Both the position numbers and the translations under genes were made by a program. Under the pieces are notes generated by a model. That model made no database searches, was not told where the DNA came from, and saw nothing but the letters and a program-made list of their open reading frames with translations. Below, one piece after another: positions 16,158 through 43,401 of a stretch of 43,509 bases of DNA; positions within the stretch are counted from its first letter, which is position 1; every line of letters starts with the position of its first letter. The stretch comes from Acidobacteriota bacterium (lineage in GTDB: Bacteria; Acidobacteriota; Terriglobia; Terriglobales; Acidobacteriaceae): the NCBI GenBank assembly GCA_021779935.1, contig JAJXZT010000072.1, positions 1 to 43,509 on the forward strand, in the 5' to 3' direction.

Positions 16158-17624
16158 CTAAGCCTGGCTTGTCCGAGCGAATAGCTGTCGTACCTTAGGA
16201 GCATCGCTCTCCATCAGCAGCACCATCAGCCGATCTCCTCCCCGCAGTACGGTCGATCCTTGTGGCACTACGAAGCGTTCCTTGCGGCTTACCAGCACCA
16301 CCAGTGTATTTTCCGGAAGCTGCAGGTCCATGATCTTGCGATTTTCCGCTGCGGAGCCTGCTTCCACCGTGATCTCCGCCATGTGCGAATCAATCGACTC
16401 GTCTGGATTGAACAGTAGTGGAAACGCGCGTTGGCGGCTGGCAACCGCTGTCAGATTCCAGTACCGGGCCAGCGCGGCCAGTGTCGTTCCTTGCAGCAGG
16501 AGAGAAGTGAGCGCCACGAAAAACACAATATTGAAGATCAGGTGCGAATCCTTGATCCCCGCCAGCAGCGGGAACGTTGCTAGAATGATCGGCGCCGCGC
16601 CGCGCAGCCCCGCCCACGCGATGAAGAGTTTTTCGCGCACTGAGTATGTTGAGGTAGGCAGTGCCACGAATACGCTCACCGGTCGCGCCACCAGCATCAG
16701 GAAAAATGCGATCAACATTCCGGAGATTGCGACGCGCGGCAGCTCAGACGGGAATACTTGCAGTCCCAGAACCAGGAACATGGCAATCTGCATCAGCCAC
16801 GCAACACCCTCGTGGAAGAGTCGTAGCGTTGTTCGATGGGTTAATCTTCCCGCTCCTACCATGATGCCAGCGACGTAGACCCCGACAAAACCGCTTCCGC
16901 GCATTGTTGCGATTGCCGCAAACGCAAAAACCGCCATGGCGACCGTGAAGACCGGGTAGAGCCCTTCCCACTCCAGTCGTATTCGGTTCACAGCGACAAC
17001 GATGAGCCGTCCTATCACGTATCCAGCCGCCGCTCCCAATAGAAGTTGTACAACCACCATGAGGGCGGTGCTCCCCAGCGTCGTCTCCGGGTGACTCATC
17101 AGGCGGATGAGCGCAATTGTCAGCAGAACTGCCATCGGATCGTTACTGCCCGACTCCAGTTCGATCAATTCTCCAAGATTTCGCTTCAGGTAGAGGCGTC
17201 GCGAACGCAGCACGTTGAACACTGCCGCGGCATCGGTTGAAGAGATGATGGCTCCGATCAGCAACCCTTCCTCAACCGGGAGGTGCAGTAGCCAGGAACT
17301 GAAGAGTCCTACTACTACTGCGCTGACCGCGACCCCCACCGTTGCCAGGCTAATCCCTTGCCATAGCACTGGGCGCACCAGGGAAAAATTCGTCTCGAAT
17401 CCCGCCGAGAACAGAATGAGAGCCAGCGCCGTGATGCCAAGAAACTGCGTTGCCCACGGGTAATCGAAGTAGATGCCGCCTGGGCCGTCTGATCCGGCCA
17501 GCATTCCTATGATGGCGAACAGCAGGAGCGCGGGAACGCCGAAGCGCGAGGAGATTTTGCTCGCAATCACACTGAGCAGGAAAAGAAGCGAGATGACCAG
17601 CAGGATGGCTTCCGTGGTTGGCAT
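16158..17624 (-). CDS. CPA1-type potassium/proton (or sodium/proton) antiporter, NhaP2/CvrA-like
   Basis: This 488-residue inner-membrane protein has about 12 hydrophobic segments (for example AILLVISLLFLLSVIASKI and ITALALILFSAGFETN). It carries the antiporter core signatures SSTDAAAVF and LIELESGSNDPMAV, with the Asp residues expected to carry ions and protons. After about residue 405 there is a cytosolic TrkA-C/RCK-C-like domain (HMAEITVEAGSAAENRKIM to GGDRLMVLL), which fits the NhaP2/CvrA group of K+/H+ antiporters rather than plain NhaP. It probably serves ion and pH homeostasis. It is convergent with the phosphatase gene and divergent from the ferredoxin gene. Confidence 0.9.
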   Translation of the reverse strand: MPTTEAILLVISLLFLLSVIASKISSRFGVPALLLFAIIGMLAGSDGPGGIYFDYPWATQFLGITALALILFSAGFETNFSLVRPVLWQGISLATVGVAVSAVVVGLFSSWLLHLPVEEGLLIGAIISSTDAAAVFNVLRSRRLYLKRNLGELIELESGSNDPMAVLLTIALIRLMSHPETTLGSTALMVVVQLLLGAAAGYVIGRLIVVAVNRIRLEWEGLYPVFTVAMAVFAFAAIATMRGSGFVGVYVAGIMVGAGRLTHRTTLRLFHEGVAWLMQIAMFLVLGLQVFPSELPRVAISGMLIAFFLMLVARPVSVFVALPTSTYSVREKLFIAWAGLRGAAPIILATFPLLAGIKDSHLIFNIVFFVALTSLLLQGTTLAALARYWNLTAVASRQRAFPLLFNPDESIDSHMAEITVEAGSAAENRKIMDLQLPENTLVVLVSRKERFVVPQGSTVLRGGDRLMVLLMESDAPKVRQLFARTSQA

Positions 17625-27352: not shown

Positions 27353-27430
27353 GTCCCCGTCGTCTAGCCCGGCCTAGGACATCGCCCTTTCACGGCGGTA
27401 ACGCGGGTTCGAATCCCGCCGGGGACGCCA
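27353..27430 (+). tRNA. tRNA-Glu (anticodon TTC)
   Basis: The acceptor stem is GTCCCCG (27353-27359) with CGGGGAC, then discriminator G and an encoded CCA (27428-27430). The anticodon stem-loop is CGCC-CTTTCAC-GGCG, giving anticodon TTC. The T loop is TTCGAATC. All arms pair well, so the gene is intact. An integrase gene follows within 190 bases, so this tRNA is the likely attachment target of the island; the intact 3' end means the island restored the tRNA on insertion. Confidence 0.97.
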
Positions 27431-27616: not shown

Positions 27617-28852
27617 CTAATCCGTCCCCGTTTGTTTCTCCGCCGCACTTGCTGCTTTCCGCTGCGAGTCTGCGACCAGTTCTACTACCTTGCTCTGAGC
27701 ACTCCGCTTTTTCTCGCTGATTGCCTGAGCGTAGACGTTCATCGTCACTGCCATCGATGCATGTCTTAGCAACTCCTGCACGACTTTTGGATCGTCGTTG
27801 TGGGCCTGGAGCAGGGAAGCATAGGTCCTGCGCATCGTATGCCAAGTAACGTGTTTGCCCGGCACAACGCGAGCAGCCACCGGCTGAATGTGATCGCGCA
27901 TCATGGCGGACATCCAGAGAGGCTGCTTGCCCTGTTTTACAGGACTGGCAAACACGTAGTCGGTATCTTTTGCGTACGGCGTTTCCTGTCGCCACGCCAA
28001 CAAATCACGAACCAATAGAGGCGAGAGTGGAATGGGTTTCTCGGAGGCTTCCGTCTTGAGTTTTCCAACGTGCTGCTTCACGATCGACCTTTTCGGATGC
28101 AAGATCCCTTTCGCAAAATCAACATCGCCCCAGATGAAACCCTGAAGTTCACCTCTGCGTGCCCCGGTGCCGAAGTCAAGAAAAACCGCAATGCGCTCGC
28201 GAACTTCAAGCGCGTTCAGCAACGCCGCCAACTCTCCGACCTCGAGGATGTCAGGCGTGTGTTCGCGCTTTCCGCTCTGGCGCACGGGCGAGATCGGATT
28301 GCGCTCCATCCACTCATAACGAATTGCGTGCTGGTAGATGAGGTGCATTAGATCGCGAATCTTCTTCTTCGTCCCGTTTGCTGCCTTCTTGCCTTCAGGG
28401 TGCTTCCTGTTTGGATCAAGGCGCAAGCCGCGGAGCCAATCCTCCACGGCAATCGCCTTGATATCGCCCAGCGCGAAGGCGCCCCACTTCGTCCCGATCC
28501 ATTTCCGGAGATAGTAGCGGTAATTGTCCTTCGTGGAATACGCGCGACCCTCTCCATCAAGATCGTCTGACTTCGGCAGCTCCTTCGTGGAAAAATGCTC
28601 GACCAACTCCTCGAACGTGCGCGGGCAGGGCGCATCAATCGAGCGGTCGAGGTTGATGTTGAGCTTCAATTGCTCCACTCGTTCCCATGCTGCGCTCTCC
28701 GAGCGGAACGCCTTCGTCGTACCAATCACAAGTTTGCGTGGCCGCCGGATGCCGTCCGGTCCGGTCTCCCGCCAGCGGTAGATCCAGACCTCACGGCCTC
28801 CACTGCGCCGCACGCGTTTCAGACTGCCATTCTGATGGTGTGTCTTCCTCAT
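27617..28852 (-). CDS. Tyrosine recombinase / integrase
   Basis: This 411-residue phage-type integrase has an N-terminal DNA-binding part (MRKTHHQNGSLKRVRR, REVWIYRWRE), a SAM-like core-binding domain (about 75-185) and a C-terminal catalytic domain. Catalytic residues are all visible: R232 (TGARRGEL), H338-x-x-R341 (HTMRRT), H364 (LLRHAS) and nucleophile Y374 (NVYAQ). The start at 28852 overlaps the stop of the HTH gene by ATGA, which points to translational coupling; a longer frame from 28945 is a read-back of that gene. It would excise and integrate the island at tRNA-Glu. It looks intact. Confidence 0.95.
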   Translation of the reverse strand: MRKTHHQNGSLKRVRRSGGREVWIYRWRETGPDGIRRPRKLVIGTTKAFRSESAAWERVEQLKLNINLDRSIDAPCPRTFEELVEHFSTKELPKSDDLDGEGRAYSTKDNYRYYLRKWIGTKWGAFALGDIKAIAVEDWLRGLRLDPNRKHPEGKKAANGTKKKIRDLMHLIYQHAIRYEWMERNPISPVRQSGKREHTPDILEVGELAALLNALEVRERIAVFLDFGTGARRGELQGFIWGDVDFAKGILHPKRSIVKQHVGKLKTEASEKPIPLSPLLVRDLLAWRQETPYAKDTDYVFASPVKQGKQPLWMSAMMRDHIQPVAARVVPGKHVTWHTMRRTYASLLQAHNDDPKVVQELLRHASMAVTMNVYAQAISEKKRSAQSKVVELVADSQRKAASAAEKQTGTD

Positions 28853-29121
28853 TGAATCCGGTCTCCATGAGGACGACACGGACGGCGACACAAGTCTACG
28901 GTTGAACGCAGCGCGGCGTCTACCTCCGACAACTTGTAACGCCAATTGTTGCGGGTCTTCTTCCCACCGGGAGGCGGATAGCCGGGGATCTTTCCCTCGC
29001 GCGTCCAGCGCAAGATTGTGCGGCGGTCATACCCGGTGAATTTGGCCACGACATTAGCGTCAACATAGGGCTCAAGAGAAAAATAGTTGAATTGAGGAAC
29101 CAGAGCCATGTGACTAGACAT
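28849..29121 (-). CDS. Small helix-turn-helix protein (excisionase/MerR-like)
   Basis: This 90-residue protein has a winged-HTH of the excisionase type: VDANVVAKFTGYDRRTILRW, then REGKIPGYPPPGGKKTR and WRYKLSEVDAALR. Such proteins bend DNA as recombination directionality factors or act as small repressors. The start at ATG 29121 follows GAGGTG by four bases and overlaps the stop of the upstream gene (ATGTCTAG). The stop overlaps the integrase start by four bases (ATGA). Its place directly before the integrase suggests an excisionase. Confidence 0.8.
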   Translation of the reverse strand: MSSHMALVPQFNYFSLEPYVDANVVAKFTGYDRRTILRWTREGKIPGYPPPGGKKTRNNWRYKLSEVDAALRSTVDLCRRPCRPHGDRIQ

Positions 29122-29476
29122 AGTGGCACCTCGACTCAGTTGCCATGCGGAGCCACGTATCGAGTTCCGCCGGGTAAAATTCCCAGACATAACGCCGTCC
29201 ACGAGCGCTGCGGTGCGCAGGGATTTCTCCTTTGCGTGCCATACGCACAACGGTCTTGTAGTGCAGACCGACGTAAGCGGCGGCTTCGCGTGTATTGAGC
29301 GGAAGCTCGTAGCCCAATTCATGTGCGCGACGGCGTTCAAGGAAACGCCGGAGTTCACGCGAGGTGGGCGGAACGTGGGTGGATGACTGCTGGTCCGGAT
29401 GCTGGTTGACGACGGACGGCGAAAACGCCGAGACGTCTACGTTATCGTACTGTGTATTACCGTGGTTGAACGACAT
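29114..29476 (-). CDS. Helix-turn-helix domain protein (second excisionase-like protein)
   Basis: This 120-residue protein has a low-complexity Ser/Gln-rich N-terminal half. A MerR/excisionase-type HTH follows at about 58-112: LNTREAAAYVGLHYKTVVRM, then ARKGEIPAHRSARGRR and WEFYPAELDTWLR. It is clearly related in plan to the 90-residue HTH gene downstream but not a copy. Its 5' end overlaps the 3' end of the winged-helix gene by 20 bases, and its 3' end overlaps the next gene, so all four leftward genes form one unit. It could be a directionality factor or a cargo-expression switch. Confidence 0.78.
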   Translation of the reverse strand: MSFNHGNTQYDNVDVSAFSPSVVNQHPDQQSSTHVPPTSRELRRFLERRRAHELGYELPLNTREAAAYVGLHYKTVVRMARKGEIPAHRSARGRRYVWEFYPAELDTWLRMATESRCHYV

Positions 29477-30023
29477 CAGGTTGGGGTTTCTCCCTCAGGA
29501 ATTGGCTCAGCAACGAGAACGCGTCACCTTCCGCGCCTCGTCGCCGGGCCTCGCTTAAGGCCCGCATCCACGCGTACGTGGACAGCGAGTCTTTTTGCGT
29601 TTTTCCCAACCGTTCTGCTTCCATACTCTTCTCCTCTGCCGCCAACTTGCGGCCGATTGCTAGTCCGTTCAGATAATCTCCCGCATATTGCGGATCGTCC
29701 ATGAGCAGTGCAACGCCCGCTGCCCGCAGAACAGATTCGCCGTCCGGGTACTCGCGCATGCAATTTCGCCACGTGCGGTTCAGATACAAAACGCCCCCTG
29801 GCGTGAGCGAGAAGTCCCGGCGTCTACGCGCGCCCGACTCTGCACGCGCGATGAGACGAAGGCTCTCCAGGCGTTGCAGTGCAGAGCGAATCCCTCCCGG
29901 TTGCAATCCCGCTCCCTGCTGAAACGCGTAAAGCGATGTCAGTTCTGCCTTTTGAATCAGTGCCAGCAGAAAGTACTCCATGGCGCTCAGCGTAATCTCT
30001 GTTTCGTTAGTTTCGTCAAACAT
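29457..30023 (-). CDS. Winged-helix transcriptional regulator (PadR/MarR-like)
   Basis: The 188-residue protein has an N-terminal winged helix (about 10-80). MEYFLLALIQKAELTSLYAF fits the PadR first helix, GGIRSALQRLESLRLIARAE the recognition helix, and RRRRDFSLTPGGVLYLNR the wing (K/R...Y.LT..G pattern). A helical C-terminal dimerisation-like region follows. PadR proteins are usually repressors of nearby genes. The ATG at 30023 lies about seven bases beyond a -10 element, with no room for a Shine-Dalgarno, so the message is probably leaderless. It is first in the leftward unit that ends with the integrase and a good candidate for island control. Confidence 0.7.
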   Translation of the reverse strand: MFDETNETEITLSAMEYFLLALIQKAELTSLYAFQQGAGLQPGGIRSALQRLESLRLIARAESGARRRRDFSLTPGGVLYLNRTWRNCMREYPDGESVLRAAGVALLMDDPQYAGDYLNGLAIGRKLAAEEKSMEAERLGKTQKDSLSTYAWMRALSEARRRGAEGDAFSLLSQFLREKPQPDVVQPR

Positions 30024-30164: not shown

Positions 30165-30482
30165 CTAGTCAACATCCTTTCGTAGGCACGAGCGGCACAC
30201 ATAAGCAATCGGTAACGTCGTCGGCCAGACCATACTGAGACATCGGACAGTGACCACCGCTGCGTACACCTTCACCCAGATCTTTTCCCGCTTGAACACC
30301 GTCCGATACTCGGCCAGGCATTTGCCCAGCTCGTACCGGTCAGCGAGGTACTGCGCGACGACTCCCACCACCAGCGGATGCTGCTTCCGTTCCGCCTCTG
30401 CCTCCTGACCTTTCAAACCGGACGTCGGCTGCTCCAGCAGATTGGGCAAATTGTCCAATCTGAAGTTGCGCCTAGAACCCAT
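30165..30482 (-). CDS. Hypothetical protein, divergent from hsdM
   Basis: In this 105-residue protein, the ATG at 30482 is chosen because GGGAGCG lies about four bases upstream; the frame extends 11 codons further. The N-terminal half is polar (GSRRNFRLDNLPNLLEQP, then a Glu/Lys stretch), the middle helical (VVAQYLADRYELGKCLAEYR), and the C-terminus hydrophobic with two Cys (YVCRSCLRK). I do not recognise a family. It stands between the integrase unit and the restriction operon, divergent from the latter, where a controller gene might be expected, but no DNA-binding motif is clear. It may not be a real gene. Confidence 0.45.
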   Translation of the reverse strand: MGSRRNFRLDNLPNLLEQPTSGLKGQEAEAERKQHPLVVGVVAQYLADRYELGKCLAEYRTVFKREKIWVKVYAAVVTVRCLSMVWPTTLPIAYVCRSCLRKDVD

Positions 30483-30515
30483 GGTTCGCTCCCGCGCCAG
30501 GTTGACGAAAACCAT

Positions 30516-30841
30516 GGAATATAACCGGCGTAGGAATAGCTTTCAGTTACTACAGCACTAATTGATTCTCGTGTGTTCCCGTTTGGGACCGGGTGGATAA
30601 ACATACGGCCGTCGGATCGAGACCAGAGGATTCGCATACCACCTTCGATTCTGCACAGCTACTAACGGCCACCAAAACATCTCGCCAAGAACAGTCCGCT
30701 CTGTTCCGCAGGCATTTCATAAACTGGTTGCACATCACAGACTTACGCGTTAAAAGGGGAGTGCCTTCCGAAGGCTTCGCTTAAGACTTCCGCCAGAGGC
30801 ATGTGCCAGCGAAGGCACGCGGACGTGGGATCATAAGGTCA
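30516..30841. other. 326-bp region upstream of the restriction operon
   Basis: No gene is credible here. TTGCAC (30728-30733) lies 16 bases before TTAAAA (30750-30755), a possible hsdM promoter. AAGG is placed about five bases before the hsdM ATG at 30842. Short frames in both directions lack features. Confidence 0.4.
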
Positions 30842-33292
30842 ATGGCTCTTAAAAAATCACATCTTTATTCTTCTCTCTGGAGCAGCTGCGACGAGCTGCG
30901 GGGCGGCATGGACGCCTCGCAGTACAAGGACTACGTCCTGACGCTGCTGTTTATGAAGTACGTTTCCGACAAAGACAAAAATGCCGGCAAGTCTGGTTCG
31001 GTGATCGAAGTTCCCAAGGGCGGCAGCTTTGCCGACATGGTGAAGCTCAAGGGCGACAAGGAAATCGGCGAGAAGATCGACAAGATCATCGGCAAGCTCG
31101 CCGAGGCGAACGACCTGCGCGGTGTCATCGATGTTGCCGTCTTCAACGACGACGACAAACTCGGCAAGGGCAAGGAGATGGTGGACCGGCTGTCGAAGCT
31201 GGTTGCCATCTTTGAAGGTCTGGACTTCAGTTCCAACCGCGCCGAGGGCGACGACCTGCTGGGCGACGCGTATGAGTACCTGATGCGGCACTTCGCCACG
31301 GAGTCCGGCAAAAGCAAGGGGCAGTTCTACACGCCGGCTGAAGTCTCGCGCATCATGGCCAAGGTCATCGGCATCGGCCCGAAGACGCGCCAGGACCAGA
31401 CAATTTATGACCCAACATGCGGCTCGGGATCATTGCTGCTGAAGGCTGTGGATGAGGCTCCGCGAGGTCTTTCCGTCTACGGACAGGAAAACGACGTGGC
31501 TACCTGGGCGCTGGCCCGCATGAATATGTTCCTGCACAACTGTCCGTCGCACGTCCTCTGGCGAGGGAACACACTGTCAGCACCGTATTTCCGGGATGAT
31601 TCCGGCCGGTTAAAGACCTTTGATTTCGCGGTTGCCAACCCACCGTTTTCTGCCAAAGCGTGGACGAACGGACTCGATCCCGCGCACGATGAATTCCACC
31701 GCTTCGAGTACGGCATTCCGCCGGCGAAGAATGGCGACTATGCCTTCCTGCTGCATCTCATCAAGTCGCTCAAGAGTAGCGGCAAGGGAGCCATCATTCT
31801 TCCTCACGGCGTCCTGTTCCGCGGCAACAAGGAAGGCGACATCCGCCGCAACCTTATCCGGCACGGGCTGATCAAAGGCATCATCGGGCTGCCGCCCAAC
31901 CTTTTTTATGGAACGGGTATTTCAGCCTGCATTGTCGTCGTCGACAAGGAGAACGCGCACGTCCGCACCGGCATCTTCATGATCGACGCCAGCAAGGGCT
32001 TCCTCAAGGACGGCAACAAGAACCGGCTGCGGGAGCAGGACATCCACAAGATCGTCGATGTCTTCAACCGCCAGCTTGAGTTGCCGCGCTACTCGCGCAT
32101 GGTGCCCGTCTCGGAGATCTCCAATGCGGCCAACGACTACAACCTCAACATCCCGCGCTACATTGATTCCTCCGAACCCGAGGACCTGCACGATCTCGAC
32201 GCGCACCTGCGCGGAGGCATTCCCAACCGGGACGTGGACTTGCTTGAGGAGTACTGGCAGGTGTTTCCTTCGCTGCGCCGGGTACTGTTCGAGAAGGGCG
32301 ACCGCGCCGGATACAGCCGCGCCCGGGTCGCGTCGCAGCAGGTGAAGGCCACGATCCTGAAGCATCCGGAGTTTGCCGCCTATTCACAGAAGGTGCGGGT
32401 GGTCTTCGACGCATGGCGGGCGGCGCACGATCCCATGCTGCGGAAGTTGAAGCAGGAGACGAAACCCAAGGCGGTGATCCGGACGCTGTCGGAGGACCTG
32501 CTGGAACGGTTTGACGGCCTGCCGCTGCTGCACAACTACGACACATATCAACGGCTGATGGATTACTGGGCCGACGTGATGCAGGACGACGTGTATCTCA
32601 TTGCCGCCGATGGCTGGCTCGCGGCGGCCAGGCCGAGAGCGGCCGTCGAGGGCAAGGACAAGAACATCCGCGAGATACCCGACCTCACCGTGCATAAGAA
32701 GAAGTACAAGATGGACCTGATTCCGCCGGCGCTGATCGTGGCACGCTACTTCGCCAAGGAGCAGGCGGAGGTGGATGCGCTGGAGGCGAAGCGCGAGGCC
32801 GCCGAGCGAGAGCTGGAAGAGTTCACGGAGGAGCACAGCGGCGAAGAGGGCCTGCTGGAAGAGGCAAAGACCGAGAAGGGCACGCTCACACGGGCCAGCG
32901 TCAGCGCACGGTTAAAGGAGATTCGGAAGGAAGCGGAGAGCGACGACGAGAAACAGGCACTCACCCGCTGCCTGGGGCTGATGGACGCGGAATCCGAGGC
33001 TGACCACGCCGTGAAGGAGGCGCAGGAGGCGCTCGACGCGGCGGTGCTGGCCCGATATGGCAAACTCACCGAGGCGGAGATCAAGACACTGGTGGTGGAT
33101 GACAAGTGGTTCGCTTCAATCTGGACGGCCATCGATGGCGAGGTGCAACGACTGACACAGGCCTTGGCCGGACGCGTCAAGGAATTGGAGGAGCGCTACG
33201 CGGAGACTTTGCCGGAGCTGGAACAATCAGTGGATGAGCTGAGCAAGAAGGTGGAAGGGCACTTAATAAAGATGGGGCTGGTAGTAAGGTGA
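30842..33292 (+). CDS. hsdM: Type I restriction-modification methyltransferase subunit HsdM
   Basis: This 816-residue protein begins with the HsdM N-terminal helical domain (LYSSLWSSCDELRGGMDASQ, then YVLTLLFMKYVSD). A gamma-class N6-adenine methyltransferase follows, with motif I DPTCGSGS (190-197) and motif IV NPPF (266-269). After about residue 480 there is a helical region and a long charged coiled coil (roughly 640-816; for example QAEVDALEAKREAAERELEE), so it is about 300 residues longer than classical HsdM. HsdM2-HsdS forms the modification enzyme; HsdM with HsdR and HsdS makes the restriction complex. The start at ATG 30842 is supported by AAGG and similarity beginning at MALKKSHLYSSLW. 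It is the first gene of the operon. Confidence 0.96.
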   Translation: MALKKSHLYSSLWSSCDELRGGMDASQYKDYVLTLLFMKYVSDKDKNAGKSGSVIEVPKGGSFADMVKLKGDKEIGEKIDKIIGKLAEANDLRGVIDVAVFNDDDKLGKGKEMVDRLSKLVAIFEGLDFSSNRAEGDDLLGDAYEYLMRHFATESGKSKGQFYTPAEVSRIMAKVIGIGPKTRQDQTIYDPTCGSGSLLLKAVDEAPRGLSVYGQENDVATWALARMNMFLHNCPSHVLWRGNTLSAPYFRDDSGRLKTFDFAVANPPFSAKAWTNGLDPAHDEFHRFEYGIPPAKNGDYAFLLHLIKSLKSSGKGAIILPHGVLFRGNKEGDIRRNLIRHGLIKGIIGLPPNLFYGTGISACIVVVDKENAHVRTGIFMIDASKGFLKDGNKNRLREQDIHKIVDVFNRQLELPRYSRMVPVSEISNAANDYNLNIPRYIDSSEPEDLHDLDAHLRGGIPNRDVDLLEEYWQVFPSLRRVLFEKGDRAGYSRARVASQQVKATILKHPEFAAYSQKVRVVFDAWRAAHDPMLRKLKQETKPKAVIRTLSEDLLERFDGLPLLHNYDTYQRLMDYWADVMQDDVYLIAADGWLAAARPRAAVEGKDKNIREIPDLTVHKKKYKMDLIPPALIVARYFAKEQAEVDALEAKREAAERELEEFTEEHSGEEGLLEEAKTEKGTLTRASVSARLKEIRKEAESDDEKQALTRCLGLMDAESEADHAVKEAQEALDAAVLARYGKLTEAEIKTLVVDDKWFASIWTAIDGEVQRLTQALAGRVKELEERYAETLPELEQSVDELSKKVEGHLIKMGLVVR

Positions 33293-33297
33293 TTCCG

Positions 33298-34497
33298 ATG
33301 ACTGTGGTGCAACACTCCGTACACATCCGCTCAGATGGCAGCGTCGATGAAACATCATCCCTGCCAGCCGACTGGGCGGTGACACCGATTGCCGAGATTT
33401 GCAGCACCTCTTCTGGGACAACGCCTCCCCGCAATATGTACGACCGATACTATCGTGATGGTACTGTCGCATGGGTGAAAACCCTGGACTTGAACAATTC
33501 AGATGTCTCAACGACAGACGAATATGTTACGCAAATTTCCCTAGACGAAACGGCGCTCCGGGTATACCCGCCGGGAACAGTTCTAGTCGCCATGTATGGA
33601 GGCTTCAACCAAATTGGCCGAACCGGGCTATTGCGAATTCCAGCAACAGTGAATCAGGCGATCACAGCAATTCAGCCAAATCCGAATCGATTGTCATCTG
33701 AGTTCCTGTTGGCGACCTTAAATTACCGTGTGGGTCATTGGAGGTCTGTCGCAAGTAGCAGCAGGAAAGATCCGAATATCACCAGTCAAGACATTCGCGA
33801 CTTCAACTTGACTCACCCCAAGCAGATTGAGGAGCAGCGGGCGATTGCGGAGGCGTTGTCGGATGTGGATGCGCTAATTGGTGCGCTGGACAAGCTCATC
33901 GCCAAGAAGCGCGCGATCAAGCTGGCCACCATGCAACAACTCCTCACCGGCAGGAAGCGGCTGCAAGGCTTCAGCAAGCGGTGGGTGCGAAAGGAAATTA
34001 AGGAGTTCGCTCCTCTTCAGCGTGGGTTCGACTTGCCGACGTACAAGATTTCTGCCGGTCCTTATCCTGTCATTTACTCAAACGGTATTCTCAATCACCA
34101 CTCTCAGTTCATGGTAAAGGGGCCAGGTATAGTAACAGGCAGATCCGGAACGATCGGTAAAGTAATATTCGTCGAACAGGATTTTTGGCCTCACAACACC
34201 ACCCTCTGGGTCACTTCGTTCAAAGCGAACAATCCGCTTTTTGTGTACTACCTGTACTCGACAGTAGGATTCGAGAGATTTGCCACAGGTTCGGGAGTGC
34301 CTACGTTCAATCGCAATGACGCACATTCGTATGAATTGCTCGTGCCGGCCGACCAGGACGAGCAAGCTGCAATTGCTTCCGTTCTCTCCGACATGGATGC
34401 CGAGATCGCCGCGCTGGAATGCCGTCGCGACAAGACCAAATTCATCAAGCAGGGCATGATGCAGGAACTACTGACTGGAAGGATTCGATTGATATGA
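33298..34497 (+). CDS. hsdS: Type I restriction-modification specificity subunit HsdS
   Basis: The 399-residue protein has the HsdS two-fold plan: a first target-recognition domain (about 20-150) then a conserved helical repeat EEQRAIAEALSDVDALIGAL with MQQLLTGRKRL. A second target-recognition domain (about 235-355) and a second repeat DEQAAIASVLSDMDAEIAAL with MQELLTGRIRL follow. Two domains mean a bipartite DNA site that cannot be read from sequence. Two starts compete: GTG 33289, which overlaps the hsdM stop by four bases, and ATG 33298, with AAGGTGA five bases upstream, which is preferred. Its stop overlaps the next start (ATGA). Confidence 0.95.
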   Translation: MTVVQHSVHIRSDGSVDETSSLPADWAVTPIAEICSTSSGTTPPRNMYDRYYRDGTVAWVKTLDLNNSDVSTTDEYVTQISLDETALRVYPPGTVLVAMYGGFNQIGRTGLLRIPATVNQAITAIQPNPNRLSSEFLLATLNYRVGHWRSVASSSRKDPNITSQDIRDFNLTHPKQIEEQRAIAEALSDVDALIGALDKLIAKKRAIKLATMQQLLTGRKRLQGFSKRWVRKEIKEFAPLQRGFDLPTYKISAGPYPVIYSNGILNHHSQFMVKGPGIVTGRSGTIGKVIFVEQDFWPHNTTLWVTSFKANNPLFVYYLYSTVGFERFATGSGVPTFNRNDAHSYELLVPADQDEQAAIASVLSDMDAEIAALECRRDKTKFIKQGMMQELLTGRIRLI

Positions 34498-35426
34498 CCC
34501 CCACAAGGAGTTACTACCGCGTAATGCTGGGCGAAAAGAGCCGTTTCGCGGAAGAGTGCTTCGCAGGAAATTTCATCGGTACCGACTTCGATATCCGCCA
34601 GGATCTCGCCAACGACTTGCCGGACGACCTCCGCAGCTTCAACCGGAAGTTCATCCCTATCTACCTGACCGTTCAACCGCAGAAAAACAAGATCAGCGCC
34701 GGGCTGGCCTGCGGCGCCCTGTGGACGGTCTCAAAGGGGATCAAGCAGGGAGACCTGGTGCTTTGTCCCGACGGCAACGGGCGGTATCGCGTGGGCGAAG
34801 TAAGCGGGCCCTACAGTTACGAACCGGGCAAGATCCTTCCCCATCGCCGTCCGGTGCATTGGCTGGATATGAGCGTTGAGCGCAGCGCCATGAGCGAAGC
34901 GTTGCAGCACTCGACGGGTTCGATTGGGACGGTGAGCAACATCTCGCAATATGCGGAAGAGATCAATCACCTGATTGGCGGAGCCACGGCGCCCAAGCTG
35001 ATTGCCACCGACGAAGCGGTGGAAGACCCCTCGGCGTTCGCAATGGAGGAACACCTGGAATCGTTCCTTGTGGCGAACTGGCAGCATACGGAGCTGGGCA
35101 AGGAGTACGACATCTATGAAGAAGACGGCGAGAAAGCCCAGCAGTATCCGACCGACACCGGACGGATCGACATCCTGGCGATCAGCAAGGACAAGAAGCG
35201 CCTGCTGGTGGTGGAGCTGAAGAAAGGCAAAGCCGCCGATGTGGCCGTGGGCCAGACGCTGCGCTACATGGGCTATGTGAAAGAAGAACTGGCGGAACAG
35301 GACCAGAGCGTGCACGGATTGGTGATCGCGCTGGAAGACGACCAGAGAATCCGCCGCGCGCTTTCCATGGTGCCGAACATCCAGTTCTACCGGTATCAAG
35401 TGAACTTCCGGCTGGTGAAGAACTGA
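34494..35426 (+). CDS. Two-domain nuclease: possible PUA/EVE-like N-terminus plus NucS-like PD-(D/E)XK C-terminus
   Basis: In this 310-residue protein, residues 1-140 form a beta-rich domain (ECFAGNFIGTDFDI, LWTVSKGIKQGDLVLCPDGN, RYRVGEVSGPY) that resembles the PUA/EVE-like domains sensing modified bases in some restriction enzymes; this is inferred. A helical linker leads to a nuclease core: EEHLESFLVANW, then TGRIDILAIS (D226), VVELKKG (E241-x-K243) and Q254. This is the D-x14-E-x-K-x10-Q layout of NucS/DUF91 endonucleases. The start at 34494 overlaps the hsdS stop (ATGA). The next gene, hsdR, begins after one base. It is embedded in the Type I operon, so it probably acts with it, perhaps as a second or modification-dependent nuclease. 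Confidence 0.8.
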   Translation: MTPTRSYYRVMLGEKSRFAEECFAGNFIGTDFDIRQDLANDLPDDLRSFNRKFIPIYLTVQPQKNKISAGLACGALWTVSKGIKQGDLVLCPDGNGRYRVGEVSGPYSYEPGKILPHRRPVHWLDMSVERSAMSEALQHSTGSIGTVSNISQYAEEINHLIGGATAPKLIATDEAVEDPSAFAMEEHLESFLVANWQHTELGKEYDIYEEDGEKAQQYPTDTGRIDILAISKDKKRLLVVELKKGKAADVAVGQTLRYMGYVKEELAEQDQSVHGLVIALEDDQRIRRALSMVPNIQFYRYQVNFRLVKN

Positions 35427-35427
35427 T

Positions 35428-38400
35428 ATGAGCCTCGTGGGAGAACTCGAACGCGCCACGCAGAACCGGCTGGTTCGGCTGTTTCGCGATCAGCTCCACT
35501 ACCGCTATCTCGGCAACTGGGAAGAGCGCGAGGGCAACACCAACGTCGAGGAAGATCTGCTGCGCGAATGGCTGAAGCGCCGGGGACAAGACGAGAAGAT
35601 CATCGGCAAGGTGCTGCACGAGCTGGGCAAGGCGAAGGCGCTGGGTGGCAGCAAGAATCTCTACGACGCGAACCGCGAAGTGTACGAGATGCTGCGCTAC
35701 GGCGTGAAGGTTAAGCCGGAGGCCGGCGAGCGCACCATCACGGTCTGGCTGGTCGACTGGAAACAGCCGGTGGAGAACGATTTCGCCATCGCCGAAGAGG
35801 TCACGGTCGGCGGCGTCCACGACAAGCGTCCGGACCTCGTACTCTACATCAACGGCATTGCCGTGGGCGTGCTGGAGCTGAAGCGGTCCATTGTCTCGGT
35901 CGCGGAGGGCATCCGCCAGAACCTCGACAATCAGAAAAAAGAGTTCATACAACCGTTCTATGCCACGGTCCAGCTCGTGCTGGCCGGCAACGATACGGAG
36001 GGGCTGCGCTATGGCGTGATTGAAACGCCGGAGAAGTACTACCTGACATGGAAAGAGGCGGCAGAGATTGAGAACCCGCTGGACCGCGCGGTGATGCAGC
36101 TCTGCCGGACAGAGCGACTGCTGGAGATTATCCACGACTTCATGGTTTTTGACGCCGGGACGAAGAAGACCTGCCGGCACAATCAGTACTTCGGTGTACG
36201 CGCGGCGCAGGAGCACGTGCGGCGGCGCGAAGGCGGCGTGATCTGGCATACGCAGGGCAGCGGCAAGAGCCTGACGATGGTGTGGCTGGCAAAGTGGATT
36301 CGAGAGCACGTGACGGATGCGCACGTGCTGCTGATTACGGACCGCATGGAACTGGACGACCAGATCGAAAAGGTCTTCACGGGAGTGAACGAGAAGATCT
36401 ACCGGACAAAGAGCGGCAAGGATCTGGTGGATGTGTTGAACGACGCAAAGGAGTGGCTGGTGTGCTCGCTTGTCCACAAGTTCGGCGCCTCGGAAGACCC
36501 CGACGTGGAGAGCTACGTGGAGGACATCACGCGATCGCTGCCGCGGAACTTCCGTCCGAAGGGCAACCTCTTCGTCTTTGTGGACGAGTGCCACCGCACA
36601 CAATCTGGCAAGCTGCACGACGCGATGAAGGCGATTCTGCCGGATGCGATGTTCATCGGCTTTACGGGGACTCCGCTGCTAAAGAAAGACAAGAAGAAGA
36701 GTATTGAAGTCTTTGGCCCGTACATTCACACCTACAAATACGACGAAGCCGTGCACGACAAGGTGGTGTTGGACCTGCGCTATGAAGCGCGCGACATCGA
36801 CCAGCACCTTACGTCGCGGGAAAAGATTGACCAGTGGTTCGAACTGAAGACGCAGGGTCTGACCGATGTAGCCAAAGCACAACTGAAGCAGCGCTGGGGC
36901 ACGATGCAGAAGGTGCAAAGCTCGGAGCCGCGCCTGAAGATGATCGTGGATGACATCCTGGTGGACATGGAGACGCGCGACCGGCTGAAGAGCGGGCACG
37001 GGAACGCCATGCTGGTGTCGAGCAGCATTTACAACGCATGCCGGTTTTTCGAGATGTTCCAGAGGACAGACCTGGCGGGAAAGTGCGCCATCATCACCTC
37101 GTACAAACCGGCACCGGCGGACATCAAGGGAGAGGCCACAGGCGAAGGACTGACGGAAAGGCTGCGGCAGTACGAGATCTACCGCAAGATGCTGGCCGAC
37201 CACTTCGACGAGCCGGAAGATACGGCGATGTATAAGGTCGAAAAGTTCGAGCAAGACGTAAAACGCCGATTTATCAACGAACCGGGCCAGATGAAGCTGC
37301 TGATCGTGGTGGACAAACTGCTCACTGGGTTCGACGCACCACCCGCGACCTATCTGTACATTGACAAGAAGATGGAGAATCACGGGCTGTTCCAGGCGAT
37401 CTGCCGCGTGAACCGGTTGGACAGCGAAGACAAGGAGTACGGGCACATTGTCGATTACAAAGACCTCTTCAAGTCGCTGGAGAAATCGATACACGATTAC
37501 ACGGGCGAGGCCTTTGAGGGATACGACGCCGACGATGTAAAGGGCTTGCTGACGGATCGGCTGACCAAGGCCAGACAACGACTGGAGGAACTGCGCGAGT
37601 CGGTGAAGGCGCTCTGTGAGCCGGTGGAGGCTCCACGGGATTCACTGGCGTACCAACATTACTTCTGTGCGAAGAACAGCGGCGACGGTGACGAGCTGGC
37701 CGATAACGAGCAGAAACGTGTTGCCCTGTATGAAACCGTCGGCGCATTGGTGCGAGCCTACGCCGACCTGGCCAACGAGATGGGTGCCGCCGGCTACCCC
37801 CAGCAGGAAGCGAAGACCATCAAGGAAGAGGTGGATCACTTCGAGAAGGTCCGTGAGGAGATCAAGCTGGCCAGCGGCGACTACATCGACATGAAGGTAT
37901 ACGAACCCGCAATGAGGCACCTGCTGGATACGTACATCCGCGCCGATGAGAGCAAGAAGCTCTCGGCCTTCGATGATCTGACGCTCGTCCAGTTAATCGT
38001 GGAGCAGGGCGAGAGGGCCATCAAGCAACTGCCGGAAGGACTGCGAGAATTCGAGCCGATGGCGGAGGCGATCGAGAACAACGTCCGGAAGCTGATCATC
38101 GACGAGATGCCGGTGAACCCGAAGTACTTCGAGACTATGTCGCAATTGCTCGACGCGCTGATCAAAGAGCGCAAGACGCAAGCGCTGCATTACACGGCAT
38201 ACCTGGAGAAAGTGGCGCAGCTGGCGAAGAAGGTGCAGTACCCCGAGACTTCCGCAACGTATCCTGCGGAGATCAACACAGGCGCTCTCAGAGCCTTGTA
38301 CGACAACCTGGACCGTGACGAGAACCTGGCAGTCCGCCTTGATGAGGAAATCCGCAAAGTAAAAAAAGCAGACTTCCGTGGCAACAAGTTCAAGGAACGA

Positions 38401-38493
38401 GAAATCCGAATTGCGATTCGGTCTGTGCTTGGCGACGACGATGAACTGGTCAAGCGGATCTTTGCCATCGCAGAGAAGCAACGTGAGTACTAA
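35428..38493 (+). CDS. hsdR: Type I restriction endonuclease subunit HsdR
   Basis: This 1,021-residue protein is the translocating and cleaving subunit. The N-terminal PD-(D/E)XK nuclease has D136 (PDLVLY) and E150-L-K152 (GVLELKR). The SF2 helicase domain follows: Walker A QGSGKS (276-281), Walker B DECHR (386-390), GFTGTPLL, and a C-terminal RecA lobe (LLTGFDAPPATYLYID). A helical C-terminal part (about 690-1021) should dock on the methylase. HsdR pumps DNA past the HsdM2S complex and cuts at random sites. It starts one base after the preceding stop and ends with an 11-bp overlap with the metallopeptidase gene. All key motifs are intact, so the enzyme should be active. Confidence 0.97.
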   Translation: MSLVGELERATQNRLVRLFRDQLHYRYLGNWEEREGNTNVEEDLLREWLKRRGQDEKIIGKVLHELGKAKALGGSKNLYDANREVYEMLRYGVKVKPEAGERTITVWLVDWKQPVENDFAIAEEVTVGGVHDKRPDLVLYINGIAVGVLELKRSIVSVAEGIRQNLDNQKKEFIQPFYATVQLVLAGNDTEGLRYGVIETPEKYYLTWKEAAEIENPLDRAVMQLCRTERLLEIIHDFMVFDAGTKKTCRHNQYFGVRAAQEHVRRREGGVIWHTQGSGKSLTMVWLAKWIREHVTDAHVLLITDRMELDDQIEKVFTGVNEKIYRTKSGKDLVDVLNDAKEWLVCSLVHKFGASEDPDVESYVEDITRSLPRNFRPKGNLFVFVDECHRTQSGKLHDAMKAILPDAMFIGFTGTPLLKKDKKKSIEVFGPYIHTYKYDEAVHDKVVLDLRYEARDIDQHLTSREKIDQWFELKTQGLTDVAKAQLKQRWGTMQKVQSSEPRLKMIVDDILVDMETRDRLKSGHGNAMLVSSSIYNACRFFEMFQRTDLAGKCAIITSYKPAPADIKGEATGEGLTERLRQYEIYRKMLADHFDEPEDTAMYKVEKFEQDVKRRFINEPGQMKLLIVVDKLLTGFDAPPATYLYIDKKMENHGLFQAICRVNRLDSEDKEYGHIVDYKDLFKSLEKSIHDYTGEAFEGYDADDVKGLLTDRLTKARQRLEELRESVKALCEPVEAPRDSLAYQHYFCAKNSGDGDELADNEQKRVALYETVGALVRAYADLANEMGAAGYPQQEAKTIKEEVDHFEKVREEIKLASGDYIDMKVYEPAMRHLLDTYIRADESKKLSAFDDLTLVQLIVEQGERAIKQLPEGLREFEPMAEAIENNVRKLIIDEMPVNPKYFETMSQLLDALIKERKTQALHYTAYLEKVAQLAKKVQYPETSATYPAEINTGALRALYDNLDRDENLAVRLDEEIRKVKKADFRGNKFKEREIRIAIRSVLGDDDELVKRIFAIAEKQREY

Positions 38494-39208
38494 GAGTCGC
38501 AGAATCGAAGTGCGCGGGATCACGGTCGAAATTGTCCGGAAGGATATCAAGAACCTGCACCTTGGCGTTTACCCTCCGAACGGACGAGTGCGAGTCGCCG
38601 CTCCGCGCCGTCTGACGGACGAAGCGATTCGTCTGGCCGTAATCTCACGCCTTGGTTGGATTCGTCGTCAGCAAGCGAAGTTTGAGAACCAGGAACGGCA
38701 ATCGAAGCGCGAAATGGTGAGCGGCGAAAGCCACTATGTTGAGGGGCGAAGATATCGGCTTCAGGTTGTGGAGAAACCGGGAGCACCAGCGATCAAACTC
38801 AAGTCAGGCCGAATTATGTTGCAAGTACCTGCCGAAGCCGACCGTGATCGCAGGGAGAAGGTACTCAACGACTGGTACCGCGCACGTCTTCGTCACCGTG
38901 TAGCGGAGTCGATTGAGAAGTGGGAGCAGGTAACAGGGCTCAAAGTCCGTGACTGGCGGATTCGGAAGATGAAGACGCGATGGGGCACATGCAATGCCTC
39001 CGCTGGTCGGATCTGGATCAACCTGGAGCTGGCGAAGAAATCCCCGCGGTGTCTCGAGTACATCATGGTCCATGAAATGGTTCACATGCTCGAACGTCAC
39101 CACAATGAGAATTTTAAAATGTATATGGACCGATTCATGCCGCAGTGGCGATTACACAGGGATGAATTGAACCGAAACCCACTGAGCCACGAAAGCTGGA
39201 GCTACTGA
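38483..39208 (+). CDS. YgjP/SprT-like zinc metallopeptidase linked to the restriction operon
   Basis: This 241-residue protein of the YgjP (DUF45/M48-like) group has zinc motif HEMVH (197-201) in EYIMVHEMVHMLERHHNE, with a downstream conserved YMDRFMPQW. The N-terminal half holds the family segments VYPPNGRVRVAAPRRL and SRLGWIRRQQAKFEN. There is no signal peptide, so it is cytoplasmic. The start is GTG 38483, inside the hsdR end (11-bp overlap), with AGAGAAG ahead; the start is decided by coupling, since the longer frame from 38378 lies wholly in hsdR. This family often sits beside hsdR; a protective role, for example degrading unassembled or stalled HsdR as ClpXP does in E. coli, is inference only. 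Confidence 0.9.
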   Translation: MSTKSRRIEVRGITVEIVRKDIKNLHLGVYPPNGRVRVAAPRRLTDEAIRLAVISRLGWIRRQQAKFENQERQSKREMVSGESHYVEGRRYRLQVVEKPGAPAIKLKSGRIMLQVPAEADRDRREKVLNDWYRARLRHRVAESIEKWEQVTGLKVRDWRIRKMKTRWGTCNASAGRIWINLELAKKSPRCLEYIMVHEMVHMLERHHNENFKMYMDRFMPQWRLHRDELNRNPLSHESWSY

Positions 39209-40821: not shown

Positions 40822-40836
40822 AGGCGAGTGATCCCC

Positions 40837-43401
40837 ATGAAGAAAATTGCTGCCGCCGTGTGTCTTACCGTGCTCTTGAATGTATTTCTCCTCGCGCAAG
40901 CGCCTGCTACAGGAATGCCTCCGTTCCAAAGTCTTGATCACGGGACTCTGGATACTGTCAATCTTGGCAATCTCAACTTTCATTTTGCCGTCCCGGTGTT
41001 GCACAAGAACGGTAGGGGCATACCGTTTGACTTCGACCTCACATACGACAGCTCCATTTGGTATCCAGTCACGTCGGGCTCCACGAAGATGTGGGAGCCT
41101 GTATCCGGGTGGGGCTGGCAGACTCAGACGAATGCGGTGACTGGTTATATTCTTCCGCCAACCGTGACGACGAGGTCGTTAAACTGCTTTCAAAACGGTC
41201 GAAATCATACGAGTTATCTCACGACAACGACCTATAGGGGTTTTGTCGATCCGCAAGGGACCTACCACCACGCCGGCGGCAGTTTCTATAGTCTCTACCC
41301 AGGCTGTTCAATCTTCATGCTTCCACCGAATACTTTCTCCGGCGCTGCTGATGACGGCTCCGGATACACGATGTCGGTTTCTGTCGGTGCTTCCAGTGGA
41401 ACAATTACCTCCAGGGGAGGGAAAACGGAAACTGTTCCTGTGGGCAACACAGGAGGAGCCGGAACAGTTCAGGACTCGAACGGCAATAAGCTTACGACGA
41501 CAAACGGAACGACGTTCAACGACACTCTCGACGGAAATACCGCGGACCCCGTTCTTACTATTTCCGGTAACACAACGAGTTCCCTCGTGTACTCCTACCC
41601 TGCCCCCACCGGTCTATCTGGAACGGTCCAGTTGAATTATTCGCAGGAGACCGTGTGCACGCACTTCGGAGTAACTGGTATCAGTGAGTATCCGCCGACA
41701 CAAGTCTATCTTGTAAGCAGCATTACGATGCCGGACGGAAGTTCATACCAAATCCAGTACGAGAATGTGCCGTCGCCTCCTTCCGGTTGCACGGGAGCCG
41801 TGACGGGACGTATTGCACAAATCACCCTACCGACCGGCGGAACGATTTCGTATACATACAACGGCGTTAACAACGGCATCTTTGCTGATGGCACAACGTC
41901 TGGATTCACTCGGACGGAGCAGTCGGCGGCAGGAAACTACACGTCAGCGGTGACGTATTCGCGGACGCAGGGCTCTCCTGGGACGACAACGATCAGCAAC
42001 GCGTTGGGAACGACGAACTTAACCTTGGAGCCAGACGCCAATAGCAAGTCGACCGGTTATTTCTACGAGACCCAGCGTGTGGTTAAAGACACCTCAGGCA
42101 GCGTACTGGAGACGGTCGATACCTGCTACAACGGGAACGTAACCGAAAGCGCCTGCAATTCCACAGCCGTCAGCTCGCCCATCACGCAGACCACGCAATG
42201 GACAACGATCGGCAGCAAGAAGTCGGAGAGGAATACTCTCTACAATAGTTATGGGTTGGTCACGGAGCTCGACGAATACGATTTCGGCGCGGGTTCGCCG
42301 ACACGACAAACCAAGATCAATTACGACACGGCACTCACGAATGGAATCGTGGACCGGCCCTCGTCGGTGAACGTGTACGACGGCAGCGGCACGCTCGTGA
42401 GCTCGACGACGTATGGCTATGATGCAGGTAGCGTGACGGCGACTTCCGGGACTCCGCAGTTGGCGGCGGTGACGGGATCGCGCGGCAATGTGACTTCGAT
42501 TAGCCAGACCACTGGAACTACTACGCTCACAAAGTCCTTCACATACTACGACACCGGAAACGTAGCGAGTGCGACGGATGTCAACGGCGCGACGACGAAC
42601 TACTCATATGCGAACTGCGGCAATTCCTTCCTCTCTTCGATCTCGCTACCGCCGGTGAATGGCAACACGTTAACCACCATGTATTCTTGGAACTGTACGG
42701 GCGGTGTTGAAACCTCAACGACGGATGCCAATGGAACAACTACCGCAATTTCCTATAGTGGCCAGATCTACTGGCGACCCTCTTCGATTGCAGACGGTCA
42801 GAGCTCAACAGATTTCTTTTACTACTCGCCGAACGAGTCAGGAACCCAAGTGGCGTTCAATAACGGAAATTCTGTTGTAACTGTTTTCTCGGTTCTTGAT
42901 GGTCTGGGGCGCCCCTGGCTGACCCAGAAAAAAGAGTCGCCGGGTTCTTCGAATTTCGACACTGTGCAAACTGATTACGACGTGCTCGGCCGCGCCTACC
43001 GGACGAGTCTGCCATTCCAGTCTGCCCTGAGTACCGGAGCCACGAATCCCAACGGCTCATGGACGCAGTATGACATCTTGGGCCGCCCCCTCGCGGTCAG
43101 CGATTCCGGCGGCGGGTCAACCGCGATTTCGTATACTGGCAACGATGTATACCAGAGCATTGGCCCAGCTCCTGGATCGGAAAACCCGAAGCGCAAGCAA
43201 TTGGAGTACAACGGTCTGGGACAGCTCACCTCGGTCTGCGAAGTGACCTCGGCCAGCGGATCGGGAAGTTGCGGCCAATCTCAATCTCAAGTCGGCTTCT
43301 TGACGGCGTACGGATACAGCGTCCTTGGCCAGTTGACGAACGTCACGCAGGGTACCCAAACCCGCGCCTTTACCTACGACAGCCTAGAAGCGGTCTCATA
43401 A
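40837..43401 (+). CDS. Secreted RHS/YD-repeat protein, 3'-truncated by an insertion sequence
   Basis: The product visible is 854 residues: a signal peptide (MKKIAAAVCLTVLLNVFLLA), an N-terminal beta-rich region and YD-type repeats. Examples are TYDSSIWYP, SFTYYDTGNVASATDVNG, TDYDVLGRAYRTSL and TQYDILGRPLAVSDSGGG. RHS proteins form a shell that often encloses a C-terminal toxin. Here the frame stops abruptly after AFTYDSLEAVS, in the middle of a repeat: the last few codons already belong to the IS element at the window edge, so the C-terminal repeats and any toxin part are missing. The ATG at 40837 gives a clean signal peptide; GTG 40828 is three codons upstream. Confidence 0.85.
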   Translation: MKKIAAAVCLTVLLNVFLLAQAPATGMPPFQSLDHGTLDTVNLGNLNFHFAVPVLHKNGRGIPFDFDLTYDSSIWYPVTSGSTKMWEPVSGWGWQTQTNAVTGYILPPTVTTRSLNCFQNGRNHTSYLTTTTYRGFVDPQGTYHHAGGSFYSLYPGCSIFMLPPNTFSGAADDGSGYTMSVSVGASSGTITSRGGKTETVPVGNTGGAGTVQDSNGNKLTTTNGTTFNDTLDGNTADPVLTISGNTTSSLVYSYPAPTGLSGTVQLNYSQETVCTHFGVTGISEYPPTQVYLVSSITMPDGSSYQIQYENVPSPPSGCTGAVTGRIAQITLPTGGTISYTYNGVNNGIFADGTTSGFTRTEQSAAGNYTSAVTYSRTQGSPGTTTISNALGTTNLTLEPDANSKSTGYFYETQRVVKDTSGSVLETVDTCYNGNVTESACNSTAVSSPITQTTQWTTIGSKKSERNTLYNSYGLVTELDEYDFGAGSPTRQTKINYDTALTNGIVDRPSSVNVYDGSGTLVSSTTYGYDAGSVTATSGTPQLAAVTGSRGNVTSISQTTGTTTLTKSFTYYDTGNVASATDVNGATTNYSYANCGNSFLSSISLPPVNGNTLTTMYSWNCTGGVETSTTDANGTTTAISYSGQIYWRPSSIADGQSSTDFFYYSPNESGTQVAFNNGNSVVTVFSVLDGLGRPWLTQKKESPGSSNFDTVQTDYDVLGRAYRTSLPFQSALSTGATNPNGSWTQYDILGRPLAVSDSGGGSTAISYTGNDVYQSIGPAPGSENPKRKQLEYNGLGQLTSVCEVTSASGSGSCGQSQSQVGFLTAYGYSVLGQLTNVTQGTQTRAFTYDSLEAVS

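Follow-up and report, generated by a model that had tools for sequence, protein, structure and literature searches.

Do five closely packed genes, in which a type I restriction-modification core is joined by a nuclease and a metallopeptidase, form a single defence system, or does each added gene follow a rule of its own? This question is raised by a locus in an Acidobacteriota bacterium of the family Acidobacteriaceae (assembly GCA_021779935.1, contig JAJXZT010000072.1, positions 1 to 43,509 of the forward strand; this whole stretch of 43,509 nucleotides is called the window here). A preliminary description of the window had proposed that the five genes act as one unit. Our sequence comparisons separate them: the protease is a fixed part of the window's HsdR subtype, and the nuclease is interchangeable cargo. 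The genes for HsdM, HsdS, the nuclease, HsdR and a YgjP-family metallopeptidase lie on one strand at 30842-39208, overlapping or abutting one another, in the order that had been described.

30842-33292, plus strand: hsdM, adenine methyltransferase subunit of 816 aa (open reading frame (ORF), Pfam, PADLOC PDLC03027, motifs)
33289-34497, plus strand: hsdS, specificity subunit of 402 aa with two Methylase_S stretches (ORF, Pfam, PADLOC)
34494-35426, plus strand: predicted cargo nuclease (PDC-S02, PDLC04824) of 310 aa (PADLOC, alignment, model, fold comparison)
34494-35427, no strand: cargo slot bounded by hsdS and hsdR; G319, a relative from the same family, has nothing in it, and other defence genes occupy it elsewhere
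35428-38493, plus strand: hsdR, helicase-nuclease subunit of 1021 aa (Pfam, PADLOC PDLC03044, motifs)
38483-39208, plus strand: YgjP-family zinc metallopeptidase of 241 aa with a GTG start (Pfam, HEMVH and His207, model)

The junctions are those of the preliminary description: hsdS and the nuclease gene have a common ATGA, a single base (35427) lies between the nuclease gene and hsdR, and hsdR and the protease gene overlap by 11 bases. There is also a 4-base overlap between hsdM and hsdS. The start codons of all five genes were chosen, not measured: ATG 30842 for hsdM (the ORF itself opens at GTG 30803), GTG 33289 for hsdS, ATG 34494 for the nuclease (ORF from 34419), ATG 35428 for hsdR and GTG 38483 for the protease (ORF from 38378). 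The order is far from random, as the nuclease, a complete hsdR of the same subtype and the protease were found together at 18 loci in many phyla; elsewhere, too, the nuclease and protease genes commonly, rather than rarely, adjoin hsdR. A scan for promoters and terminators gave matches no better than those in shuffled sequences.

To judge from domains and motifs, hsdM, hsdS and hsdR are a type I restriction-modification core. Pfam families were HsdM_N and N6_Mtase in HsdM, Methylase_S in HsdS, and HSDR_N, SWI2_SNF2 and a T1R_D3-like domain in HsdR, and the scores against the PADLOC type I models were 1331 bits for HsdM (PDLC03027) and 1493 bits for HsdR (PDLC03044). Methyltransferase, target-recognition, nuclease and helicase domains are all present with their motifs, of which DPTCGSG and NPPF in HsdM and ELKRS, GSGKS and DECH in HsdR are intact, as had been noted of the operon's catalytic motifs in general; HsdS is a subunit without such motifs. 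Among the sequence matches listed, the solved relatives of HsdR are EcoR124-type, and those of HsdM extend to residue 484 at most.

We calculated how regularly a YgjP gene stands behind hsdR at 80 genome loci encoding the nuclease, where 36 HsdR-like genes of at least 700 aa were scored. YgjP was found behind 18 of 18 complete hsdR genes of the window's subtype and behind 0 of 18 other HsdR-like genes (Fisher p = 2 × 10−10, nuclease-selected loci); the latter come from 17 loci, the loci are not all independent (some are near copies), and the YgjP model, built on same-subtype proteins, may miss remote ones, although it did find remote ones at 93-151 bits elsewhere. Three of the 18 other genes clearly do not belong with the nuclease (those at two opposite-strand loci and one far 1552-aa ORF at 159 bits), and several more sit kilobases from it. 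In a separate comparison of operons of this kind, L117/L179 and L118/L180 came out as lacking YgjP owing to the distance limit and a split hsdR; the HsdR and YgjP searches of the phylum place YgjP beside both.

The same picture was obtained from the window's own relatives. Among the matches listed for 297 genomes of its phylum, window included, YgjP stood behind 9 of 9 HsdR proteins above 800 bits, a count that includes the window and two broken hsdR genes (in G096 the gene is spread over two frames; in G024 it is split as well, and joined to YgjP). A YgjP match was present in 8 of 100 genomes of the window's family and lay directly behind hsdR in 6 of these 8; of the remaining two, one is truncated where its contig begins, and the other is a remnant of 44 residues that has no hsdR in view. 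In 18 operons (the window and 17 others), the protein distances of HsdR and YgjP were correlated (Spearman's correlation, ρ = 0.709, 0 of 2000 permutations as high), and those of HsdR and HsdM gave ρ = 0.511. The same-family relative G319 has ygjP where the nuclease is absent. In the literature searched, which lacked most subscription papers, we found no paper on a systematic HsdR-YgjP link.

By the same counts the tie is one-way, and several other HsdR subtypes carry YgjP too. Among the phylum matches listed, 39 of 85 HsdR entries (second pieces of one gene and some low-scoring entries left out) have YgjP behind, where "behind" means on the same strand and at most 4 kb from the matched piece, and all 106 YgjP entries were used. 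Three observations weigh against an exclusive tie. Firstly, YgjP occurs away from HsdR, 67 of the 106 phylum entries having no listed HsdR upstream. Secondly, no HsdR-model match was found near the close YgjP relatives of G228, G013 and G276 (loci L184, L185 and L186; 194-224 bits) within the 6-12.5 kb fetched for each. Thirdly, the Acinetobacter plasmid locus L173 joins this nuclease to a different HsdR subtype and YgjP, and the tie is thus not confined to one subtype.

Two damaged loci are of separate interest. In G024 (L181, 1650-4274, minus strand) an 875-aa open frame covers HsdR-model residues 276-860 and then the whole YgjP domain; the HsdR N-terminus lies in another frame, and the hsdR is broken, hence it is no clean fusion and may be either a fusion or a decay product. 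In E. coli TB06051 (L196, 7945-10214) an hsdR without its N-terminus lies beside an IS1 element, and the metallopeptidase gene is annotated as intact.

The protease itself matched the Pfam family YgjP-like (PF01863, YgjP/DUF45) with 210 bits against a cut-off of 26. Its zinc site, H197, E198 and H201 of the HEMVH motif together with H207, is the same in all of the 21 sequences aligned. A structure model from 18 sequences (mean pLDDT 90) resembled abylysin (4jiu; Z = 13.8, 1.8 Å, 97 residues), selecase, Spartan (6mdw; Z = 9.0, 2.8 Å, 97 residues) and Wss1 (Z = 8.0-8.4), in a comparison that barely covers the N-terminal residues 1-130. The fold comparisons of the protease and of the nuclease are second looks at Foldseek hits, and families absent from that list are not excluded. 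Spartan cuts proteins cross-linked to DNA, according to the accessible part of PMC7213743. Given that the protease is inherited along with HsdR and that its catalytic domain looks like those of DNA-linked proteases of the Spartan/Wss1 type, it may act on HsdR or on proteins that HsdR meets on DNA, which is the weaker of our suggestions.

The nuclease behaves differently from the protease. In the same 18 operons its distances tracked those of HsdR poorly (ρ = 0.142, 152 of 2000 permutations as high), those of YgjP likewise (ρ = 0.104, 417 of 2000) and those of HsdS weakly (ρ = 0.257, 52 of 2000). Of the 66 entries of a quick nuclease tree (65 loci and the window; 15 of the 80 loci left out, 30 of 63 inner branches open), 22 belong to operons of this type and 17 are close to other type I genes. 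For another 19, no type I gene could be seen on the same strand within 6 kb, and 8 are undecided at contig ends. The operon label changes 17 times on this tree; the mean for shuffled labels is 18.6, with 131 of 500 shuffles giving as few changes. Its starred branches force at least 5 of the changes. In G319, hsdM, hsdR and ygjP are 76%, 81% and 68% identical to those of the window, hsdS is present, ygjP has the same GTG start and the same 11-base overlap, and the nuclease is absent. The nuclease is read as cargo because its contexts are mixed on the tree, its distances do not track HsdR, and the G319 operon is nuclease-free. Two results limit this reading: the distances of HsdM and the nuclease are somewhat correlated (ρ = 0.344, 25 of 2000), and the context labels, when all are counted, show slight clustering (32 changes against a shuffled mean of 35.2, with 18 of 200 shuffles giving so few). 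The loci L002-L081 were picked by nuclease similarity and are uninformative on how often the operon is nuclease-free.

The slot between hsdS and hsdR is filled in various ways in operons of the same subtype:

L195 (E. coli): DarT-DarG
L172: two DUF262 genes, one a GmrSD match
L175: a PDC-S02 protein, YhcG-like by eye
L003: PDC-S06 beside the nuclease
L182: PDC-S06
L020: a DarT-domain protein beside the nuclease
L027: PDC-S44 beside the nuclease
L176: a Schlafen AlbA_2 protein
L174: a 328-aa protein without a family match
L177-L179, L208, L210: nothing between hsdS and hsdR

L177 has, between hsdM and hsdS, an ORF with a weak match to the nuclease model (70 bits), and at L173, with its other HsdR subtype, an Abi protein follows the nuclease. 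At L005 (13642-20325) and L006 (4244-11551), both on the minus strand, a different type I operon lies on the strand opposite to the nuclease and has its own weakly nuclease-like ORF between hsdM and hsdS; the nucleases of these two loci have no same-strand type I partner.

What does the window's cargo nuclease do? Its Pfam matches were NucS_C (30 bits) and PDDEXK_4 (25 bits), and D226, E241, K243 and Q254 are invariant in 66 aligned sequences, window included. The PADLOC PDC-S02 model PDLC04824 matched residues 5-309 of 310 with 500 bits. An AlphaFold2 model from 66 sequences (mean pLDDT 84, pTM 0.52) has two domains joined by a poorly modelled linker (163-183). Residues 184-304 form a NucS/EndoMS-like PD-(D/E)XK domain (5gke, Z = 14.5, 3.1 Å, 112 residues; 2vld, Z = 14.5). 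Residues 2-165 have, in the predicted structure, an EVE/YTH/PUA-like fold, matching 2p5d (Z = 10.1, 2.9 Å, 114 residues), 1wmm (Z = 10.0, 2.7 Å, 113 residues), residues 1-156 of VcaM4I (6yex; Z = 9.9, 3.2 Å, 126 residues) and YTH domains (Z about 8.5-9.4); PH1033 and MJECL36 are among the fold relatives. The term "NucS-like" used before is thus appropriate for residues of about 184-304 and not for residues 2-165. Membership of NucS/EndoMS as a whole was rejected (NCBIfam NucS model, 35.2 bits against a cut-off of 216), and the NucS structures among the re-examined Foldseek hits, a list from which absence excludes nothing, align with residues 177-304 only.

The predicted fold joins a PUA-superfamily reader domain to a nuclease domain, as in EVE/PUA type IV enzymes. 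Prokaryotic EVE, DCD and YTH readers, with DCD and YTH-like fusions to PD-(D/E)XK nucleases, are described in the accessible part of PMC7641849, in which NucS and DUF91 do not occur. An EVE/YTH-like N-terminal fold ahead of a NucS-like domain suggests a modification-dependent nuclease, which is the best reading of the model. Against it, no listed Pfam family was found in the reader-like domain in any of the 66 sequences, and the fold is predicted; in the window this domain has Leu46 (34629-34631) where 61 of 66 aligned sequences have Trp. When the nuclease profile was compared with solved structures, NucS was the sole significant match, and no reader domain was found.

Taken together, the sequences show a modular operon: a type I core, a YgjP gene that stood behind this HsdR subtype in every complete case examined, and a cargo slot occupied here by the nuclease. 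We consider it about evenly balanced whether, in this defence operon, the cargo nuclease is modification-dependent and the protease acts on HsdR or on the proteins it meets on DNA. The type I complex would cut unmodified invading DNA. The cargo nuclease would be type IV-like: its N-terminal reader would sense a modified base, most likely a modified cytosine, given that self DNA would receive m6A from HsdM. The NucS-like domain would cut phage DNA whose modification evades type I. YgjP might act as a built-in factor for restriction alleviation or turnover. In a stronger form of this idea, a widespread subtype of type I systems would always need YgjP as its fourth component, a DNA-linked protease like Spartan and Wss1 that clears HsdR motors from self DNA. 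This form is tentative, and we think it more probably wrong than right. If it were true, the operon would bring its own restriction alleviation and could move between hosts without relying on ClpXP. The accessible parts of the literature hold a precedent and two contrary cases. ClpXP degrades translocating EcoKI HsdR (PMC4231737). However, alleviation occurs without proteolysis in EcoR124I, which has the closest HsdR of solved structure (PMC4231737), and ArdC, a metalloprotease that is Spartan-like in fold, counters HsdRMS even when its protease activity is lost (PMC7213743).

The layout has a published counterpart. The RRDM island of enteropathogenic E. coli, as described in the accessible text of PMC12255303, has the identical order hsdM-hsdS-cargo-hsdR-metallopeptidase, and the E. 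coli record L195 bears the RRDM metallopeptidase accession WP_001122107.1. Models from the window's relatives gave 1441 bits for its HsdR and 327 bits for its protease. The cargo differs, being DarTG2 in RRDM and an EVE/YTH-like domain with a PD-(D/E)XK nuclease in the window. RRDM also has the repressor RptR, whereas the window has no RptR-like ORF, and no RptR-type site was found in 30401-30842. The island shields laboratory E. coli from five phages, its authors regard the hsdS-hsdR site as a potential recombination hotspot, and the same part of the paper reports no test of the metallopeptidase's function (PMC12255303).

The nuclease has known relatives as well. PDC-S02, a phage defence candidate found by guilt-by-embedding in PADLOC-DB v2, matches it over nearly its full length, but this family also covers YhcG-type nucleases with a different-looking N-terminus (the L175 protein; label by eye). 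The family, broader than the window's nuclease, was predicted in 39 of 100 P. aeruginosa panel strains (accessible part of PMC10855318). VcaM4I, as far as PMC7897488 was accessible, has a similar N-terminal fold with the nuclease domain after it; that domain is HNH in VcaM4I-type enzymes and NucS-like PD-(D/E)XK in the window, where modification specificity is predicted from the fold. NucS/EndoMS have a similar C-terminal nuclease domain, whereas the N-terminal half of the window's protein matches other folds. The preliminary description had called the cassette under-described. The hsdM-hsdS-cargo-hsdR-metallopeptidase layout is already published and the nuclease is already a PADLOC candidate; within the literature searched, what seems under-described is how regularly the protease goes with this subtype of HsdR, along with the nuclease's reader-like domain.

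The protease could alternatively be an activator or a counter-counter-defence factor that cleaves a phage antirestriction protein or a repressor and not HsdR. CapP and IrrE cleave repressors, according to the accessible parts of PMC12255303 and PMC7213743, and YgjP occurs regardless of which cargo the slot holds, even when it holds nothing. The missing RptR-like ORF speaks against this idea, though other repressors are not excluded, and the tracking of HsdR by YgjP distances suggests an HsdR-specific partner. We therefore regard this alternative as rather doubtful.

The cargo nuclease might be a guardian with a logic like that of PrrC: it would do nothing as long as the type I complex is in place and active, and would cut host and phage DNA once a phage protein has inhibited or removed that complex. 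PrrC is a tRNA nuclease, unlike the window's nuclease; its gene presumably lies between hsdS and hsdR in EcoprrI, where we know of no metallopeptidase. The nuclease is not placed at random: of the 36 complete HsdR-like genes at the nuclease-selected loci, 25 have it immediately in front (15 of the same subtype and 10 others), a position that would suit a guardian. The slot also holds PDC-S06 and DarT proteins, which may act by abortive infection. EcoprrI with prrC is, like the window, a case of a defence gene inside a type I locus, and PrrC, embedded in a type IC hsd locus, senses inhibition (accessible part of PMC12707154). However, the 19 of 66 tree entries lacking a same-strand type I gene within 6 kb indicate that the nuclease probably works without a type I partner, and its N-terminal fold resembles a DNA-modification reader. 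A guardian role is thus unlikely.

The strongest reading of the preliminary description, a single complex of all five proteins with the nuclease bound to HsdM2S and cutting where HsdM2S has its targets, is very unlikely. The close coupling at all four junctions and the modest HsdM-nuclease correlation would agree with such a complex, but the nuclease tracks HsdR poorly and HsdS only weakly, it is found in unrelated contexts, and G319 has the core without it. An obligate five-part system was rejected on the distances, the nuclease tree and G319, and the single system of the preliminary description is only partly supported: the protease follows the HsdR subtype and the nuclease switches context. 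The idea of a housekeeping YgjP that happens to lie next to hsdR can be dismissed on the phylum, family and nuclease-locus counts (18 of 18 same-subtype hsdR genes followed by YgjP; in the family, six of eight matches behind hsdR and the rest a cut copy and a remnant), even though YgjP-family genes lie away from hsdR in many genomes.

The modular operon is probably part of an integrated mobile island, because a tRNA gene and an integrase gene lie to its left:

27353-27430, plus strand: tRNA-Glu(TTC), likely island integration site
27617-28945, minus strand: tyrosine integrase adjoining the tRNA 3' end (ORF and Pfam)

No second copy of the tRNA 3' end of at least 14 bases was found in the window, the best match being 13 bases at 17395. 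Elsewhere in the same genome, contig C27 has a near-complete tRNA-like match and contig C13 two partial copies of the tRNA end (98478-98563 and 93404-93456). Among the neighbouring genes, a 188-aa ORF at 29457-30023 (minus strand) adjoins HTH_17 genes of the island and had no Pfam, NCBIfam or PHROGs match at E 0.001, and an 857-aa ORF at 40828-43401 is RHS/YD-repeat-like by eye.

To our knowledge, how type I systems spare a new, unmethylated host has been examined in depth in just a few enzymes of E. coli. With a protease gene regularly found behind one subtype of HsdR across many phyla, and on some plasmids too, self-contained alleviation can be tested directly. The exchangeable slot illustrates how one core can be paired with many second-line defences; here the second line is probably directed against phages whose DNA modifications let them escape type I.

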